Shown piece by piece: positions 2,605-61,578 of a DNA stretch of 64,000 nt. This DNA comes from Endomicrobium proavitum (GTDB lineage Bacteria; Elusimicrobiota; Endomicrobiia; Endomicrobiales; Endomicrobiaceae). The DNA is taken from the NCBI RefSeq assembly GCF_001027545.1, contig NZ_CP009498.1:1054001-1118000 (forward strand), given 5' to 3'. The number at the start of each line of letters is the position of its first letter. Position 1 is the first letter of the stretch. The notes beneath the pieces are model-generated. The model was not told the DNA's origin, searched no databases, and was given only the letters and a program-made list of their open reading frames with translations. Both the position numbers and the translations under genes were made by a program.

Positions 2605-3402
2605 TCACTTGCCGTTAAGCCAGCAAAATCCGTTTTTTTGCGTAAGTTCCACGTCCATGTCAAAAAGCTGCGATAATTTTTCGCTTGTAAAAACTTTTGC
2701 TCGCTCGCCGTCGGCAAAAACTTTTCCGTCTTTGAAAAATATAAATCTGTTTATTTCCGGAATTATATCGGACGCCAAATGCGTAACCAAAATAATTTTT
2801 GTTCCCGCTGCCGCAATCTTTCGCATTACGGCGTGAAGTTTTGCCGCCGACGCAATATCAAGGCTGTTTGACGGCTCGTCCAACACTAAAACTTTAGGCT
2901 CGTTAACCAACGCTCTTGCTATTAAAAAACGACGCGCCTCGCCGGAAGACATTGTGTCAATTGAATGTTGTTTAAGACGGCTTACTTCAAGAAACTCTAT
3001 CATTTTGCGCGCTTTTTCTTCCATCTGCAAGGTAACCGTGTGATTTTTTGCAATGCCCACGCTTGAAAAAAACCCGGACAGCACAGTTTCAAAGCCTGTT
3101 ATATCGGTTTGAAATTTATTTTGAAGCTCGCTTGTAACTATGCCCAAAGACTGCCTTAAATCGCTTATATTCCATTTATCGCGCCCAAAAAGCCTGCACA
3201 GCGTGTTGTCGCCGGTGTAAGACGGGTAAATATTTCCCGTAATAAGTTTAATAAACGTAGATTTTCCGGAACCGTTAGGCCCTATAACAGCAACGTTTTC
3301 ATCCGAGGCAATAGACAAGTTTACGTCGTTAAGAATAAATCTGTCTTGACGCAGAACCGACACATTGCGAAATTCTATAAATTGTTTATCAATTTTTTCC
3401 AT
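2605..3402 (-). CDS. ABC transporter-type ATPase (ModF/YlmA-like)
   Basis: A 265-residue single ATP-binding cassette. Walker A GPNGSGKST is at about residues 41-49, the signature MSSGEARR at 151-158, Walker B VLVLDEP at 171-177 and the H-loop histidine near 208. No membrane segment and no permease gene lies beside it. Stand-alone ATPases of this type (ModF, YlmA) are known but their substrates are mostly uncertain. It lies upstream of mprF on the same strand, so a role with the envelope is possible but only inferred. Family assignment is firm, function is not. Confidence 0.85.
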   Translation of the reverse strand: MEKIDKQFIEFRNVSVLRQDRFILNDVNLSIASDENVAVIGPNGSGKSTFIKLITGNIYPSYTGDNTLCRLFGRDKWNISDLRQSLGIVTSELQNKFQTDITGFETVLSGFFSSVGIAKNHTVTLQMEEKARKMIEFLEVSRLKQHSIDTMSSGEARRFLIARALVNEPKVLVLDEPSNSLDIASAAKLHAVMRKIAAAGTKIILVTHLASDIIPEINRFIFFKDGKVFADGERAKVFTSEKLSQLFDMDVELTQKNGFCWLNGK

Positions 3403-35876: not shown

Positions 35877-35945
35877 AAAATAATTTTAATTTATATAATA
35901 AAACAAATGCTTAATGTAAATTTTTTGCAACTTTGCGGAGGCGTT

Positions 35946-37142
35946 ATGAATTTAAATTACATTAAAACTCCTCAAAAATTTGTTCAGCCCGACTTATTTT
36001 CTTCCGAGAATTTTATTTACGCCAACCTTGACGCAGAATTCCCTTTATTTTTTGATACCCTCGTTCATTGGCAATTTAATGAAAATCTTTTCTATCTTGT
36101 ATCAAAAGATTTGTCGCACCTTATTGTTTCAGGATACGGCGTTCACTTATCAAAAAAATCCGAGCGGCTTATTATTAAAGATAATAAAAAATGTATTTAC
36201 GAACTTCCGTTTTTTAGACTAAAAACAGTGGCAATTATGTCAAAAGGCATCGGTATATCTTCGGACTTAATAGAAGAATTTTCAAAAGCGCAAATCAATC
36301 TTTCTTTCCACGACTTTTCCGCAAAACCGCACTCTTTACTGCAATCTCTTTGTTTCTCGCAACACGCCGACTTAAAACGCAGGCAAATTTTAGCTCAAAA
36401 TTCAAAAACCGGCATATCTTTTATGGCAGCCGTAGTGTGCGGAAAAATTTCAAATCAAGCGGCAGTTTTAAAATATTGCGTAAAAAATATTAAACCCGAC
36501 AAAAATATAAACATACACAAATTACAAACCGCCAAAGAAGCATGCGCGCAAATGCAACAATGCTATAACCAGTGTTTAGCTTTATCAAGAAATATAAGCG
36601 ATATTTTTGAAGCCCGTCAAAAATTTATGGGCTACGAAGGAACTGCGGCAAGAATTTATTGGAATGCGATATCTGCAATTATTTCTGAAAAAATTGAATT
36701 CTCGGGCAGGCAAACAAAACCGCTTCCCAAAGATGCCGTAAATACTTTATTAAATTACGGATACGGTATTTTATACTCAAAAATATGGAGCGCGGCGATA
36801 ATTGCCGGATTAGACCCTTATGTCGGGTTTTTACATACCGATCAATCAGGAAAACCGGCCCTTATTTTTGATTTAATAGAAGAGTTTCGCGCGCCTATTG
36901 TAGATAGAGCGGTTATTGCTTTTATTATGCTAAACAGAAATATTCAAATAACTCAAAATTTACTTGATATAAAAACAAGAGAAAAATTCAGCGAGAAAAT
37001 TATTGAACAATTAACATCCGCGCAATATTACGAAGGTCAAAAAGTAATGGTTTCAGATATTATCCTCTCTCAAGCAAGAAAACTTGTCGCTTTTATAGAA
37101 GAAAGACAAAAAGAATATTCCACGTTTAGTTTTAAGTGGTAA
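35946..37142 (+). CDS. cas1: CRISPR-associated endonuclease Cas1
   Basis: A 398-residue Cas1. I use the ATG at 35946, which has GGAGG at 35937-35941; the ATG at 35907 lacks a site. The usual Cas1 start motif appears as LIVSGYGVHLSKKSERLII only after about 55 extra residues. The catalytic region is visible: the metal-binding glutamate in FMGYEGTAARIYWNA, and GYGILYSKIWSAAIIAGLDPYVGFLH with FDLIEEFRAPIVDRAV supplying the histidine and acidic residues. Cas1 integrates spacers with Cas2, which follows 16 bases later. No interference gene and no array are seen in the window. Subtype cannot be assigned from this alone. Confidence 0.92.
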   Translation: MNLNYIKTPQKFVQPDLFSSENFIYANLDAEFPLFFDTLVHWQFNENLFYLVSKDLSHLIVSGYGVHLSKKSERLIIKDNKKCIYELPFFRLKTVAIMSKGIGISSDLIEEFSKAQINLSFHDFSAKPHSLLQSLCFSQHADLKRRQILAQNSKTGISFMAAVVCGKISNQAAVLKYCVKNIKPDKNINIHKLQTAKEACAQMQQCYNQCLALSRNISDIFEARQKFMGYEGTAARIYWNAISAIISEKIEFSGRQTKPLPKDAVNTLLNYGYGILYSKIWSAAIIAGLDPYVGFLHTDQSGKPALIFDLIEEFRAPIVDRAVIAFIMLNRNIQITQNLLDIKTREKFSEKIIEQLTSAQYYEGQKVMVSDIILSQARKLVAFIEERQKEYSTFSFKW

Positions 37143-37158
37143 CACGGGAGACGCTTGC

Positions 37159-37497
37159 ATGGAAGAACTCACTACTCTTGTTTTCTACGACTTGCGTAAA
37201 GAAAAACTAAAAATTAAACTTGCGGAAAAATGTAAAGATTACGGTCTTAAAAAAATGCACAAAACCGGTTTCTGCGGCAAATTAAGCAGAGAAAAAAGAG
37301 AACGCTTAAAAAAAGATTTATCAGAAATTATCTCTGATAATAAAGCAAGATTAATTATTCAAACGGTTTGTTCAAGATGTCTTGGAGAAGTATTTATTTC
37401 CGACTCTACCGCAAAAAATAAAAAAACAAAAGAGAAGCCATCGGCAATACATTTTGGAATGAAATTAAACAAAGCATACTTACACGATGAAAATTAA
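37159..37497 (+). CDS. cas2: CRISPR-associated protein Cas2
   Basis: A 112-residue protein with the Cas2 ferredoxin fold start TTLVFYDLRKEKLKIKLAEK and KMHKTGFCGKLSREKRERLK; the aspartate of FYD is the conserved position. The second half (QTVCSRCLGEVFISDS) has a cysteine pair not usual in Cas2, and the C-terminal tail is basic. A GGGAG site at 37145-37149 precedes it. It would form the integration complex with Cas1 upstream. Divergence of the C-terminal half makes this slightly less certain than cas1. Confidence 0.8.
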   Translation: MEELTTLVFYDLRKEKLKIKLAEKCKDYGLKKMHKTGFCGKLSREKRERLKKDLSEIISDNKARLIIQTVCSRCLGEVFISDSTAKNKKTKEKPSAIHFGMKLNKAYLHDEN

Positions 37498-37712: not shown

Positions 37713-37740
37713 TTGTCCTATAATAATAGTTATGTTTAGT
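37713..37740 (+). other. dif-like XerC/XerD site 1
   Basis: Left arm TTGTCCTATAA, spacer TAATAG, right arm TTATGTTTAGT, followed by ATAC. The right arm resembles the E. coli XerD half (TTATGTTAAAT), and the ATAA-N6-TTAT centre is the dif hallmark. Identical to site 2 over 37 bases including flanks. Confidence 0.75.
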
Positions 37741-38346: not shown

Positions 38347-39279
38347 ATGGCAAATCCACAGAAAAAGAACGGTTTTACAAAATATCCGAATGATTTTTTA
38401 GAGAAGATTACCGCATCATCCTTAACGAAAGAGGAAATACGGATAGTTATGCTTATAGCCCGATACACGTGGGGTTATAACAAGGAAATGGAAATCATTG
38501 AACAAAAATTTATTGCCGAAAAATTGGGGCGCAATAAAGGCAACGTTTCAAGAACCGTAAAAAACTTATTTTTAAAGAATGCATTAATCTACAATTCCAC
38601 AACCGGAGCCGTGGGAATTAACCAAAATTATGAAGCTTGGATTAAAAAAACTATTAAGGAAAAAACCCCCAAATTGTGGGGAGTTGCAGAAATGACAACC
38701 AAAAATGACAACCAAGAATTACAACCAGAAATGACAACCAAAAATGACAACCAAGAATTACAACCAAAAATGACAACCAAAACACGAAAAAATGACAACC
38801 AAAACACGAAAAAAGCACAACCTAACTATAAGGTAGTTAAAGAAAACAATAAAGAAAACATAAAGAAAGAGTGCGCGCGCGCGAGTTTTGGGGAATTTCA
38901 AAACGTAAAACTTTCGGAAACCGAAAAACAAAAATTAGAAAACGAAAATGGAAAAGAAAAAACCAAAGAGGCAATAAATTTTTTAAGCTTATACAAAGCC
39001 GAAAAAGGCTATAAAACAAAATCAGACTATCTGACCCTTAATCGCTGGGTTTTGAAAGCTGTTGAGGAAAGGCAGGCTAAACCGCCGCCGTTGTCTTTTT
39101 CGGCTAAAATAGCCGCCGAAGAAGCCAAAAAACAAGAGCAGGAACGACGGCGCGATAAAGCGTTAAAAGAATTTGCTCAAAGGCAAAGAGCAATAGAAGA
39201 AAGTAACAAAACCGGCGTTGAAATTGACGCTGCGTTAAAAAAATTACGAGAGGAGTATAAAATATGGCTGACGATATAA
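38347..39279 (+). CDS. Phage lambda O-like replication initiator
   Basis: A 310-residue protein. Residues about 8-110 are a winged-helix DNA-binding domain of the bacteriophage replication protein O type: NGFTKYPNDFLEKITASS, EEIRIVMLIARYTWGYNKE and KFIAEKLGRNKGNVSRTVKN. A threonine/asparagine/glutamine-rich linker follows, encoded by iteron-like repeats (see 38692-38802), then a charged helical C-terminus. Protein O binds iterons inside its own gene and recruits helicase loaders. No helicase-loader gene is in the cassette. The next gene overlaps its end by 16 bases. Confidence 0.78.
   Translation: MANPQKKNGFTKYPNDFLEKITASSLTKEEIRIVMLIARYTWGYNKEMEIIEQKFIAEKLGRNKGNVSRTVKNLFLKNALIYNSTTGAVGINQNYEAWIKKTIKEKTPKLWGVAEMTTKNDNQELQPEMTTKNDNQELQPKMTTKTRKNDNQNTKKAQPNYKVVKENNKENIKKECARASFGEFQNVKLSETEKQKLENENGKEKTKEAINFLSLYKAEKGYKTKSDYLTLNRWVLKAVEERQAKPPPLSFSAKIAAEEAKKQEQERRRDKALKEFAQRQRAIEESNKTGVEIDAALKKLREEYKIWLTI
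38692..38802 (+). repeat. Six iterons inside the repO-like gene; candidate origin
   Basis: ATGACAACCAA occurs at 38692, 38705, 38731, 38744, 38770 and 38792 (spacings 13, 26, 13, 26, 22). Two further ATTACAACCA variants lie in the 26-base gaps. A-rich sequence follows at 38820-38870. In phage lambda the origin has the same plan: iterons within gene O followed by an AT-rich stretch. Confidence 0.65.
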
Positions 39280-39455
39280 CAAACAATTGCAAACTGTGCG
39301 GCGAGTCCTCGGAGTGTTTTAAATGCGCAAGCAATTATAACAACACCTGTTTGTCGTCGGGAAAATATAAAAATTGCGAACGATATAAAAATAGCTATTT
39401 TCGCAGCAGAGGGTTGATTGCGGCGGAACAAATTATCGGATACTTTGTCCTATAA
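39264..39455 (+). CDS. Small cysteine-rich protein ending in dif site 2
   Basis: A 63-residue protein with five cysteines near the N-terminus (CKLCGESSECFKCASN, then NTCLSSGKYKNC), suggesting a metal-binding knuckle. It overlaps the repO-like gene by 16 bases. Its last codons, YFVL and the stop, are encoded by the dif-like site 2 (TACTTTGTCCTATAA), so the natural C-terminus may have been replaced when the cassette formed. Function unknown. Confidence 0.55.
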   Translation: MADDITNNCKLCGESSECFKCASNYNNTCLSSGKYKNCERYKNSYFRSRGLIAAEQIIGYFVL

Positions 39456-39472
39456 TAATAGTTATGTTTAGT
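39445..39472 (+). other. dif-like XerC/XerD site 2
   Basis: Identical to site 1: TTGTCCTATAA, TAATAG, TTATGTTTAGT. Its left arm supplies the stop codon of the cysteine-rich gene ending at 39455. Confidence 0.75.
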
Positions 39473-40066: not shown

Positions 40067-40074
40067 ACAGTTAA

Positions 40075-40240
40075 CATGCAAATTATTAAACCAACGATGC
40101 GCCTATATTCTTCATTGCAGTTTGCAAGTCTTTTTTTTCTTGAGCCGGTTCGCTTCTTGTGCCTGTAATTACTGCCGCGTCTTTTACATCAAATTCCAAC
40201 AGCTGAAACATTTTTTTGTGTAATCAATATATGTTTGAAA
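40075..40240 (-). pseudogene. Duplicated 3' end of the flavoprotein gene
   Basis: Bases 40075-40240 are nearly identical to 46002-46168, which hold the last 50 or so codons of the flavoprotein gene at 46013-46573 and the ATGC next to dif site 6. The copy has a few substitutions and one T fewer in a T run (7 instead of 8), giving a frameshift. It stops abruptly at 40240 inside the gene. Confidence 0.85.
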
Positions 40241-40633: not shown

Positions 40634-40744
40634 TTATACTTGCCCTATAATACTAATTATATTTAGCATACAGTGTACCTCAACATAAATCTTGTTATTT
40701 CTTTTGTATATGATTTTATAAATATATCCTGAATATCTTTCCAT
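40634..40744 (-). pseudogene. Truncated GIY-YIG nuclease, cut at dif site 3
   Basis: A 36-codon minus-strand frame with a strong AAAGGAG site before the ATG at 40744. The product starts MERYSGYIYKIIYKRNNKIY and then VEVHC, matching the GIY-YIG N-terminus (GYIYK...NGKIYVG) up to the point where the sequence runs into dif site 3. The remainder of the nuclease is absent. It is evidence that cassette borders cut genes. Confidence 0.55.
40640..40667 (+). other. dif-like XerC/XerD site 3 (diverged)
   Basis: TTGCCCTATAA, spacer TACTAA, TTATATTTAGC. The right arm is identical to that of site 6. A truncated GIY-YIG gene on the minus strand reads into it. Confidence 0.68.
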
Positions 40745-42197: not shown

Positions 42198-42231
42198 ATG
42201 AGATATACATTATCATTTTTGATATAAGTAT

Positions 42232-42259
42232 ACTAAACATAATTACTATTATGGACAAA
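42232..42259 (-). other. dif-like XerC/XerD site 4
   Basis: On the minus strand TTTGTCCATAA, spacer TAGTAA, TTATGTTTAGT. One T of the left arm is missing compared with site 1. The spacer is identical to that of site 5. Confidence 0.7.
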
Positions 42260-42545
42260 TTATATGGAAATGATCCACAACATTGACTAAGCCGCTGACG
42301 AAGCGCACAACCTTGTCTGGACTGCCTTCCGGAAGGCAACGGGAAAGTAGGTTTTTTGCCGGAGCGTCTGTGGATTTCCGGACACTCCGGTTTGTGGGAA
42401 AAAACCAATGTTCCGGAGTGATGCAAAACGGTGAAGCAGATACGGAATGCCAGGCGAAATGCCCTAACCGTAAAAAATCAATAATAATATAAAAAAATAA
42501 GGTTTGTTCCAAAGGGGACTTGACAAAAGGAGATTTTTGAGTATA
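42260..42545. other. GC-richer leader of cassette D
   Basis: 286 bases without a convincing gene. It holds strong inverted repeats: GCCTTCCGGAAGGC near 42322-42335 and CACTCCGG (42383-42390) with CCGGAGTG (42413-42420). An AAAAGGAG at 42525-42532 lies 13 bases before the acyltransferase ATG. A non-coding RNA is possible but unproven. Confidence 0.35.
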
Positions 42546-43771
42546 ATGACAACAACCAACAACCAACAACCAACAACCAACAACCAACAACCAACAACCA
42601 ACAACCAACAACCAACAACCAACAACCAACAACCAACAACCAACAACCAACAACCAACAAACAACAAACAACAACCAACAACCAACAACCAACAACCAAC
42701 AACCTTCATCATTCTGAAGCAAGACTTATTCCGTTAGATGGAATAAGAGGTATTGCGGCTCTAATTGTTGCGTTTGTCTGGCATTATCAACATTTCGCGC
42801 CGGAAACATATCCTTTTAGTAAAATATTGTATTGGCCTTATAATTTTGGTTGGATAATGGTTGATTTATTTTTTATATTATCGGGTTTTATATTTTATAG
42901 CATTTATCGCAAACATATAGAAAACCATACCTTGTCTTTCAGGAATTTTGCTGTTTTACGAGTTAGCAGATTATACCCGCTTCATTGGCTTACTCTAATT
43001 GTAATTCTATTGTTCCAAATATTCCGCAAATACAATGGACTTGAAAGCTTTCCAATTTATTATAGCCGTAATCCTATTTTGTTTTTATTCAATATTCCAA
43101 TGTTGCAAAACGGGTGGCTGATAACAGATATTTCATATAATGGCCCAACATGGTCTCTTTCAATTGAAATAATGATGTATATACTGTTTTTTGCGGTTTT
43201 TTGTCATGCAAAATCAAATAAAAATTACATCATCTATTGCTTGTTATTAATATGTCTTGGTATAATAATGACCTTTTCTGGACAAAACATTCCTTTCTTC
43301 AATGGTCAGGTTGCACGAGGATTAATGGGATTTTTCCTTGGGTGTATCACTGGAGAAGTATATATTTATTGTAATAACAATCGTAAATTTGGAAATATGC
43401 TTACTGTATTTTGTATATTTGTGGCATTATTCTTAATAATTGTGCCTATTATATTTGGATACGGTATTTTAAGAAATTGGGTGTTAGTTTATACATTTGC
43501 TTTTTTCCCTGCATTTATACTTATTGCATTGAGAATTGGTTTTATCGAAAAAATATTTTCATTAAAACCATTTATATATTTTGGTGAATTATCATACTCA
43601 ATATATTTATTGCATTATCCAATGCAACTTATTGTAAAAACGATAGATGAATATTTAGGTTTGGTAATTGATTATTCAAATCGGATATTTTTTATAGGAT
43701 TTAGTATTATAGTAATAATTGTATCGCATTTTATACATTATTATTTTGAAAAAAAATACAAAAATATATAA
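42546..43771 (+). pseudogene. Acyltransferase-3 family membrane protein, apparently phase-OFF by repeat length
   Basis: The ATG at 42546 is followed at once by 22 heptamer units (42549-42702). From that ATG the frame ends at 42737. The acyltransferase frame is one base off: it begins after the repeats with LHHSEARLIPLDGIRGIAAL, the universal N-terminal motif of acyltransferase-3 proteins, and runs to 43771 through about ten membrane segments. It has no ATG, GTG or TTG before the TTG at 42827, which would lose that motif. Adding one 7-base unit, or losing two, restores the frame. Family members O-acylate surface glycans. It therefore looks like a contingency gene rather than a dead one. Confidence 0.75.
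42549..42702 (+). repeat. 22-unit heptanucleotide array (CCAACAA)
   Basis: Units of 7 bases from 42549: ACAACAA once, 15 perfect CCAACAA (42556-42660), two ACAACAA (42661-42674), four CCAACAA (42675-42702). Total 154 bases. In any frame it encodes repeats of TTNNQQP. It sits between an ATG and the coding region of the acyltransferase. Confidence 0.95.
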
Positions 43772-43917: not shown

Positions 43918-43945
43918 ACTAAACATAATTACTATTATAGGACAA
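43918..43945 (-). other. dif-like XerC/XerD site 5
   Basis: On the minus strand TTGTCCTATAA, spacer TAGTAA, TTATGTTTAGT, both arms identical to sites 1 and 2. Confidence 0.75.
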
Positions 43946-43983: not shown

Positions 43984-45777
43984 ATGATTAAATTTAGTTC
44001 CTCTGATGAAGATTCTTTTATAACTATAGACAAGAAACCTCGTACCCACGAAAAATACAGGGCTGACGGTGATTTTTTTATTAAAAAACGTTCTTTGGCT
44101 ATTGTCATGCAAGGAAGTATTTTGCATGAAAATGACTTTACTTTAGAAACGGTTAAAATATATAAAGAAACCTTTGCAGAGTGTCCAATTATAGTTTCTA
44201 CATGGCAAACAGAGCCGCAAGAAGCTATTTGGGCATTGGAAAATGCAGGCGCTATAGTGCTAAAAAATGCGCCGCCGGAAGTAAAATGTTTTGACAATAC
44301 AAATTATCAAATTAAATCTACTCAAGCAGGCTTGAAAAAAGCAAAGGATATCGGCGTTAAATACGTTATTAAGACAAGAACAGATCAGCGTATGTATGAA
44401 ACAAACCTTCCCGAATATTTTATGGATTTACAGGAAACCTTCCCGTTAGATACAGATATAAAAACACAACAGAAAAGATTGATTGCCATATCATTAAATA
44501 CATTTAAGTATCGTTTATATGACATATCAGATATGTTTTTATTTGGTACTATAGACGATGTTTTAAATTTTTGGAGTTGTGATTATGAGCGCAGAACAGT
44601 TTTTCCTCCGTTTGAAACGATTTTAGATTATTGCAAAAGTTGTCCTTGCGAAATAGGGTTTACTATAAGTTACTTGGAGCGTATAGGTTATAATCCTACA
44701 TTTACGCTAAAAGATAGTTGGGAATCTTATGCAAAGTACTTTTGTGTTATTGATGCCTCTTCTGTCGGATTATATTGGCCGAAATATACAAATGAGACCT
44801 ATCGTTGGCGTAATTTTTTTGGAAACAATCGTTTATTAGAAGAGCTTACATTTAAAGAATGGCTTTCCCTTTACAACCATACTAAGAAGTATATTCCTGA
44901 ACACATATTAAAAATGCCATATAATCAACCCTATAAAGAAAAACCTTCTATATTACAAAGAACTGCCTGTTTAGGCATTTTTACTTTACAAAAATTAAAC
45001 ACATCAGTTTTTAATTGTATCTCATTTCAAAAAAATCGCATTGATTATTGTTTAGAAGTAAAGAATAATCCTGAATTTAGAGTTGATATAGATTCTCTGG
45101 AAAAATACGCTAAGAAGGAATGGACGTTATCATTATTATTTCGGACACAACAAAAAGATATTTTTGGAGTTAAGAATGCAAATATTTTGTTAATGGATTC
45201 TTTTTCTGAATTAACCGATAAGCTCTTTATAAATAAAAAAACAGGGAAAAGATTTTGTGCTCATTTTAGTGATATTAACACCGATACGGATTTTAATGAG
45301 CTGTATAATTGTTTAGGAATGTTATCTTTAGAAGAAATGGAAAAGGCTTATGATAGCTTCTTTTCTCAAATTGTAAAATCTTATGGCAATATTCCAATAA
45401 TTTATCTTCACTTTCCAACAGATTTTGAAACAAGAGAGGAGTTTATCTTGCGTGCCCGTAAAATAAAAGAGACTATTGCTAAACTGTCCGAAAAATATAG
45501 TAATATTCTTTCTATAAACGTTGATTTTTTAGAAAGAGCGCCGGAAGATGATTTTCCATATCATTTTTCTGAGAAAACATATAATTATATAGCGCGCAAA
45601 CTGGCGAGCACCAAATTATTTGAACTACCTTGTATTGTTATGCCAAAAAGTTTAAAAAATAGATTTCGATATAAAATTTGGAGTTATTTAAAAAAGAAGA
45701 AAAAATGTGGTTTTATTTCTAAACGAATATGGAAAGCATTAGATACAAAACTTAGGAAGAAAGGACTTACAAAGTGA
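43984..45777 (+). CDS. WavE-like lipopolysaccharide-synthesis glycosyltransferase
   Basis: About 597 residues from ATG 43984 (AAGG 9 bases before; a TTG at 43954 would add ten residues). The segment SLAIVMQGSILHENDFTLE, then VSTWQTE, KTRTDQRMYE and DISDMFLFG, are the conserved blocks of the WavE family of putative glycosyltransferases acting on surface polysaccharide. The C-terminal 250 residues are a second region of unknown type (IPIIYLHFPTDFETREEF). Codon use is AT-rich and unlike its neighbours, suggesting transfer. It is the sole gene of cassette E. Confidence 0.72.
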   Translation: MIKFSSSDEDSFITIDKKPRTHEKYRADGDFFIKKRSLAIVMQGSILHENDFTLETVKIYKETFAECPIIVSTWQTEPQEAIWALENAGAIVLKNAPPEVKCFDNTNYQIKSTQAGLKKAKDIGVKYVIKTRTDQRMYETNLPEYFMDLQETFPLDTDIKTQQKRLIAISLNTFKYRLYDISDMFLFGTIDDVLNFWSCDYERRTVFPPFETILDYCKSCPCEIGFTISYLERIGYNPTFTLKDSWESYAKYFCVIDASSVGLYWPKYTNETYRWRNFFGNNRLLEELTFKEWLSLYNHTKKYIPEHILKMPYNQPYKEKPSILQRTACLGIFTLQKLNTSVFNCISFQKNRIDYCLEVKNNPEFRVDIDSLEKYAKKEWTLSLLFRTQQKDIFGVKNANILLMDSFSELTDKLFINKKTGKRFCAHFSDINTDTDFNELYNCLGMLSLEEMEKAYDSFFSQIVKSYGNIPIIYLHFPTDFETREEFILRARKIKETIAKLSEKYSNILSINVDFLERAPEDDFPYHFSEKTYNYIARKLASTKLFELPCIVMPKSLKNRFRYKIWSYLKKKKKCGFISKRIWKALDTKLRKKGLTK

Positions 45778-45832: not shown

Positions 45833-45980
45833 TTAATTTTGTTTTGCAATCCTTTCAACACGCCATGTTATTTGCGCGAGTGCTTCGTTGTACCCGTAAT
45901 ATTGAAATCCAAACCGAGTTGTTGATACTGTTTGTTCTGAAATTTTAATTACAGTTCCGCCATTCAATAATACTTTGTCC
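45833..45980 (-). pseudogene. C-terminal fragment of an unknown gene, cut at dif site 6
   Basis: A minus-strand frame opening inside dif site 6 with no start codon: DKVLLNGGTVIKISEQTVST, RFGFQYYGYNEALAQI and ending RIAKQN then TAA. It reads like the tail of a real protein (about 48 residues) whose 5' part was removed at the site. Family not recognised. Confidence 0.45.
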
Positions 45981-46002
45981 TATAACAGCAATTATATTTA
46001 GC
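45975..46002 (+). other. dif-like XerC/XerD site 6
   Basis: TTGTCCTATAA, spacer CAGCAA, TTATATTTAGC, followed by ATGC. It lies 10 bases from the 3' end of the flavoprotein gene and forms the right border of the island. Confidence 0.72.
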
Positions 46003-46012
46003 ATGCAAATTA

Positions 46013-46573
46013 TTAAACCAACGATGAGCCTATATTCTTCATTGCAGTTTGCAAGTCTTTTTTTTCTTGAGCCGGTTCGCTTCTTGTGCCTGTAATTACT
46101 GCCACGTCTTTTACATCAAACTCCAGCAGCTGAAACATTTTTTTTGTGTAATCAATATATGTTTGAAATAAACCGGCATCAGGATTGCCTTGTGTAAACG
46201 CAAGAACCAGCTTTTTTGCGGCATTTTCTTCTTTAAATTGCGGAGAAAATCTCGGAGAAAATTGAGCATACAGTCTATCGGTAAATATTTTTGCCTGAGC
46301 GCTCATTTGCCCCATATAAATTGGCGAGCCAAAAACAAGAGCGTCGGCGGACTTTAGCGCGCCGTAAAGTTTTTGCATATCATCATTTATAATGCACCCT
46401 TGATTGCCTTTCTTGCAGCCGTAACAGCTTTGGCAAGGCTTTATATCAAGATCATTAAAATAAAAAACCTGAATTTTAGCGCCCTGTTCTTTAGCGCCTT
46501 CAAGTATTGCGTTTACTGCCCACGCAGTGTTGCCTTTTTTGCGAGGACTTGCAACAAACCCTATAATGTTCAT
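46013..46573 (-). CDS. NADPH-dependent FMN reductase/iron-sulfur flavoprotein family
   Basis: A 186-residue flavodoxin-fold protein. FVASPRKKGNTAWAV is the FMN phosphate loop, FGSPIYMGQMSAQAKIFTDR the isoalloxazine region, and CQSCYGCKKGNQGC a cysteine cluster as in iron-sulfur flavoproteins. It reduces FMN or transfers electrons to unknown partners. Its last 50 codons are duplicated at 40075-40240 in cassette B. Its 3' end lies 10 bases from dif site 6. Confidence 0.85.
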   Translation of the reverse strand: MNIIGFVASPRKKGNTAWAVNAILEGAKEQGAKIQVFYFNDLDIKPCQSCYGCKKGNQGCIINDDMQKLYGALKSADALVFGSPIYMGQMSAQAKIFTDRLYAQFSPRFSPQFKEENAAKKLVLAFTQGNPDAGLFQTYIDYTKKMFQLLEFDVKDVAVITGTRSEPAQEKKDLQTAMKNIGSSLV

Positions 46574-61528: not shown

Positions 61529-61578
61529 GTTGCCGTAAAATTCCACTTTCCACTTTTCACTTTCCACTTTGCCGTTTA
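61529..61578 (-). repeat. Heptamer-type repeat between queF and four-helix gene 1
   Basis: On the minus strand TAAACGGCAA, then AGTGGAA, AGTGAAA, AGTGGAA, AGTGGAA and TTTTACGGCAAC. It encodes the last seven or so residues of QueF (KRQSGK then TGA) and ends 19 bases before the ATG of four-helix gene 1. Confidence 0.75.

Follow-up and report, generated by a model that had tools for sequence, protein, structure and literature searches.

Endomicrobium proavitum Rsa215 lives freely in the termite gut and belongs to the phylum Elusimicrobiota (PMC4505116). In its chromosome, 22 tandem heptanucleotides separate an ATG codon from an intact O-acyltransferase gene that lies one base out of frame with it. 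With moderate confidence we read this as a contingency (phase-variation) locus, in which slipped-strand changes in the array would switch the translational frame and which would be OFF at 22 units. The gene lies in a window of 64,000 bases, the whole stretch of DNA that was analysed, corresponding to bases 1,054,001-1,118,000 of a single contig of 1,588,979 bp. Unless stated otherwise, positions are those of the window, and the main features are collected in Table 1.

Table 1. Features of the acyltransferase gene and the surrounding cassette cluster (window coordinates).
Feature	Position	Strand	Remarks
dif-like site	37713..37740	+	left end of cassette cluster
dif-like site	39445..39472	+	between cassettes
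dif-like site (diverged)	40640..40667	+	before Schlafen/AlbA_2 gene
dif-like site TTTGTCCATAA-TAGTAA-TTATGTTTAGT	42232..42259	-	left border of acyltransferase cassette; one base missing in XerC arm
Perfect sigma-70 promoter TTGACA-N16-TATAAT	42520..42547	+	-10 box overlaps ATG 42546
Alternative start TTG	42537..42539	+	same frame as ATG 42546; 4 nt from Shine-Dalgarno
Short frame, OFF product, 63 aa	42546..42737	+	ATG through array to stop 42735-42737
Tandem array, 22 heptanucleotides	42550..42703	+	(CAACAAC)15 (CAACAAA)2 (CAACAAC)5, read unit by unit
Acyltransferase-3 (PF01757) coding region	42704..43771	+	frame +1 relative to ATG; no ATG/GTG/TTG before 42827
dif-like site TTGTCCTATAA-TAGTAA-TTATGTTTAGT	43918..43945	-	right border of acyltransferase cassette
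WavE-family surface-glycan gene	43987..45777	+	next gene downstream of acyltransferase, in neighbouring cassette
dif-like site (diverged)	45975..46002	+	3′ end of flavodoxin-like gene; right end of cluster

According to the proposed mechanism, the enzyme would be a phage-type Acyltransferase-3 (AT3) O-acyltransferase that was acquired horizontally and that acylates a glycan of the outer surface. The array would sit between the start codon, either ATG 42546 or the in-frame TTG 42537, and the first membrane helix, and initiation at either codon would require a transcript start upstream of 42537. The number of units would vary in cells through slipped-strand mispairing. Since 7 leaves a remainder of 1 on division by 3, every third unit count (17, 20, 23, 26 and so on) would give an enzyme of ~400 aa that carries (NNQQPTT)n as an N-terminal tail, and the counts in between would give peptides of roughly 50-70 aa.

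Units 16 and 17 of the array are CAACAAA, and the other 20 are perfect copies of CAACAAC. TRF returned a period of 7 with 22.1 copies (42550-42704, score 296), and in five shuffled versions of the window no heptamer was perfectly repeated three or more times in a row. The array begins one base after ATG 42546. A preliminary description made from the letters of the sequence had placed 22 heptamers just after this codon and the end of its frame at 42737, and both are exact. It had also stated that the enzyme frame is one base off and has no start of its own upstream, which proved correct. Bounded by a TGA stop at 42521, this open frame extends from 42524 to 43771; its earliest ATG, GTG or TTG is TTG 42827, which lies past the catalytic motif, and ATT 42533 is the sole start-like codon on the 5′ side of the array. 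Simulated indels bore out the claim that the gain of one unit or the loss of two turns the gene ON, each producing a single frame of ~400-410 codons; the gene was ON at 17, 20, 23 and 26 units and OFF at all other counts.

The same description pointed out that the array does not interrupt the enzyme frame. This is true, but it carries no evidence, because the CAACAAC heptamer has no stop codon in any forward frame. The informative part is the stretch of ~350 codons that remains open in the enzyme frame after the array (~7e-13 expected from base composition); the two remaining frames have 30 and 21 stops downstream of the array. A gene on the minus strand through the array was rejected as a candidate, as the repeat has no stop there either and open minus frames are uninformative.

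A search of the genome for CAACAAC found no second array of this heptamer, and its presence at one locus rules out a genome-wide heptamer network in the style of TAACTGA in Beggiatoaceae. No CAACAAC array was found in any other related genome searched. Elsewhere in the window, a short array of a different heptanucleotide, TTCCACT (4.3 copies, 61541-61570), is situated where a QueF-like gene meets a four-helix-bundle gene, close to the start of the latter. On a viral contig (IMGVR_UViG_3300048576_000538, L088; reverse strand 2948-3283) there is a gene that reads ATGAAAACAAC(CAACAAC)10, in which this heptamer follows the start codon directly and continues in frame into another 84 residues, to which no function was assigned.

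The protein encoded downstream of the array matches PF01757 at positions 4-322 of 326 (E 5e-26, 92 bits against a curated cut-off of 31) and its closest phage family, PHROG 3333 'O-acetyltransferase', at positions 5-356 of 372 (E 1.3e-43). Near-complete coverage of both families indicates that the acyltransferase is not decayed. The N-terminal Arg/Lys...His motif near the first helix is present (RGIAALIVAFVWH), with the same spacing as in three relatives (L027-L029). These families were matched in place of a hexapeptide-repeat (left-handed beta-helix, NeuO-type) fold. No other PF01757 protein is present in the genome, and no relatives of the acyltransferase were found at 1e-15 in 59 related genomes, genus and family included. 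The nearest relatives are 31-35% identical and come from Clostridia MAGs, and a relative with ~31% identity is carried on an E. coli plasmid, where it adjoins a tail-fibre assembly gene. The G+C content of the gene is 28% vs. 38% for the window. The absence of relatives in the family, the low G+C and the nearest relatives in Clostridia MAGs suggest that the gene was probably acquired horizontally.

Relatives that have no array start 10-30 residues before the conserved motif, about where the array ends here; the repeat tract thus takes up the position of the N-terminus. The frame in related genomes had been proposed as a check. Among the AT3 genes examined in 15 Endomicrobiaceae genomes, some at partial loci, no heptanucleotide or comparable array was found at a gene start. 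One of these genes has a short hexamer run of 3 copies ~200 bp upstream.

The arrangement resembles two switches that have been proven in other bacteria. For the enzyme family, a precedent in Haemophilus, as first suggested, is valid; the closest precedent, however, is NeuO of E. coli K1. In the neuO gene, borne by prophage CUS-3, a heptanucleotide lies 2 nt past the start codon in 2-93 copies, and enzyme production is limited to copy numbers that are multiples of three (PMC3046976). In a set of 64 genomes with 3-53 repeats, ~66% were OFF (PMC13001214). As in neuO, the array is placed directly behind a putative start codon, every third copy number would lead to the full enzyme, and each of the three repeat frames encodes one and the same heptapeptide. 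Copy numbers of 20-22 and a location on DNA that is mobile there and putatively so here are further likenesses, and NeuO is an O-acetyltransferase for a surface glycan, as is predicted for the E. proavitum enzyme. In contrast to the integral-membrane AT3 protein described here, NeuO is a soluble left-handed beta-helix; its gene has the repeat AAGACTC, encoding the heptad RLKTQDS, and its variation is proven, whereas here we infer it. The array in E. proavitum also differs in that it overlies a promoter and belongs to a gene in a dif-like cassette. That the layout of the NeuO switch recurs here with an enzyme of another fold suggests that heptanucleotides behind the start codon were adopted convergently for the O-acylation of glycans.

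The oafA gene of H. influenzae encodes an AT3 surface O-acetyltransferase that is reported to be phase-variable and is associated with simple sequence (tetranucleotide) repeats (PMC9558356, PMC6479036). Membership of the AT3 family, simple sequence repeats and, as far as the sequence predicts, O-acetylation at the surface would be common to both genes. In oafA, unlike the present gene, the repeats are tetranucleotides, and acetylation of LOS heptose was shown in that other organism. Hence the original idea of a phase-variable acyltransferase is sound in its anatomy, which is real and fits the neuO and oafA switches, while the variation itself is presumed.

The preliminary description missed a perfect promoter that overlaps the start of the gene. 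It matches TTGACA-N16-TATAAT at 12/12 positions, a match that is expected 0.05 times per window and was observed twice; the other occurrence precedes the PBP1a gene, which has a normal leader and start, and looks genuine there. Transcription from the promoter at 42520-42547 is predicted to start at ~42554, inside the array, and such transcripts would lack both ATG 42546 and TTG 42537. As they carry no start codon in the enzyme frame, the switch depends on transcription that begins further upstream. No other good promoter-like site was found at 42220-42519. The Shine-Dalgarno sequence AAAGGAG at 42526-42532 lies 13 nt from ATG 42546, which is untypical, and 4 nt from TTG 42537, compared with 4-10 nt in other genes of the window. 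A riboswitch or structured RNA in the leader was rejected, since the leader had no Rfam match and its fold is unremarkable (z -1.5).

The overlapping promoter, the spacing of the ATG and the lack of a promoter candidate upstream lend some weight to two other explanations. TTGACA-TATAAT could be the real promoter of a relic whose enzyme is made at no repeat number, the native leader and start codon having been replaced by repeat expansion or by a deletion and fusion. The placement of the -10 box of a perfect promoter over the ATG, the enzyme frame devoid of a start codon from the promoter to 42827, and the related AT3 genes, which have no arrays where checked, are all consistent with this. We nevertheless regard it as rather unlikely, because ~350 intact codons with all domain features would not be expected in a gene that has long been dead; a recent loss would not show. 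Alternatively, the predicted transcription start at ~42554 would put the array in a 5′ untranslated leader, the length of which tunes expression, with translation beginning at an unusual start such as ATT 42728, an in-frame codon immediately ahead of the LDGIRG motif. Effects of leader repeats on expression have a precedent in Moraxella uspA1 and uspA2, in which the tracts lie between the promoter and the start (PMC4679880). No Shine-Dalgarno sequence is apparent before 42728, however. Non-canonical AUU start codons are also rare, and control by leader length appears improbable.

The frame switch can also be weighed against an error in the sequence. The chromosome was assembled from PacBio RS data alone, at >20x average coverage, and short-read polishing was not reported (PMC4505116). 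The unit count is the state of this one PacBio-only assembly, and an indel would alter the called ON or OFF state; the earlier statement that the gene is currently OFF holds at 22 units, within that limit. It is highly improbable that the array has in truth another number of units or another sequence, with the gene simply ON. One of the dif-like sites is one base short when compared with its sisters, which would fit such errors, but the reads, from 8-12 kb inserts, easily span 154 bp, the array has no long homopolymers, and the rest of the gene is in an intact frame. Moreover, an error of this kind would change the called state alone and not the existence of the array.

Taken together, the exact array and its frames, the ~350 intact codons, the neuO and oafA precedents and the viral gene with ten CAACAAC units after its start argue for the frame switch. 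A surface-glycan cluster elsewhere in the genome could supply a substrate; it contains a WavE protein, and, as read from their sequences, a nucleotidyltransferase, a glycosyltransferase and an aminotransferase. The promoter over the ATG, the 13-nt Shine-Dalgarno spacing, the single array in the genome and the array-free AT3 genes of Endomicrobiaceae argue against it.

The dif-like cassette setting of the gene, which was also missed at first, is more surprising than the switch. Six copies of a 28-bp site, TTGTCCTATAA-NNNNNN-TTATGTTTAGT, some of them diverged, are found between 37.7 and 46.0 kb. The native dif, at 626,282-626,309 of the genome, is TTGTCCGATAA-GATACA-TTATGTTAAGT. The arms of the site match it at 20/22 bases in the same 11+6+11 layout, and the centres differ. 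Most Endomicrobiaceae genomes have one site of the native dif form. The six sites, which are oriented F F F R R F along the cluster, bracket five segments (about five cassettes). From left to right, these contain a phage-type replication gene accompanied by a small neighbour, a gene for a small secreted protein, the Schlafen/AlbA_2 gene, the acyltransferase and the WavE gene. Both sites flanking the acyltransferase have the same orientation and the same centre, TAGTAA, the layout expected of an excisable cassette. At 1,225,006-1,225,530 of the genome (L076), two more sites flank a 0.5-kb segment with a single small lipoprotein-like gene. A search of the genome for tyrosine recombinases (PF00589 proteins) yielded one XerC-like and one XerD-like protein and no others. 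The eight dif-like sites with about six small cassettes, counted apart from the native dif at 626282, may represent a dif-module system. The possibility that these ~35-nt repeats are CRISPR repeats of the nearby cas1-cas2 was rejected on account of their spacing of 1.2-2.1 kb, their mixed orientation and their arms, which are those of native dif. The site pattern was not found in viral contigs.

The dif or pdif modules known from plasmids and chromosomes of Acinetobacter are small cassettes with a 28-bp site at each border, which consists of an 11-bp XerC arm, a variable centre of 6 bp and an 11-bp XerD arm; additional sites on the chromosome depart from the main dif mostly in this centre (PMC6449649, PMC12907356). 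The literature found on dif modules concerns Acinetobacter alone. The E. proavitum cluster resembles these modules in its bordered small cassettes, in its multi-module array and in extra sites that differ mainly in the centre. It differs in phylum, in cargo and in the mixed orientation of its sites. It is possible, and we propose it tentatively, that surface-glycan genes of this free-living Endomicrobium are swapped as single-gene cassettes by the host XerCD at dif-like sites, with the heptanucleotide switch in one of them. In three other Endomicrobiaceae genomes, secondary dif-like sites with the left arm CCTA(T/C)AA occur beside a native CCGATAA dif (G061:C3:63229, G062:C4:57416 and G064). 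The last has three identical secondary copies (C46:28213, C54:35927, C55:36689), one of them 3.9 kb from the native dif.

If the switch is confirmed, it would be a contingency switch in the Elusimicrobiota, a phylum without one described in the literature found, and its carrier is a commensal of the termite gut and not a pathogen. The dif-like cassettes, if real, would extend gene shuffling of the Acinetobacter type to a distant phylum, an extension that the Endomicrobiaceae genomes with secondary sites make testable. With XerCD cassettes and a switch both at work, surface variation would operate on two levels, one nested in the other, in a relative of intracellular symbionts.

The WavE gene next to the acyltransferase has its paralogue in the surface-glycan cluster, and WavE homologues were not found in the related genomes at 1e-15. 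On the left, the cassette cluster adjoins cas1 and cas2 (35907-37497); no effector cas gene is apparent beside them in the window. The 3′ terminus of the flavodoxin-like gene (46013-46573) is covered by a duplication of 170 bp (~97% identity), with copies at 40071-40240 and 45998-46168. The latter begins beside a dif-like site, and the duplication looks like a scar of integration or recombination. The phage O-like replication gene is intact and contains ~9 copies of a 13-nt repeat (38687-38804). These repeats are presumably origin iterons, as in lambda, and not a switch.
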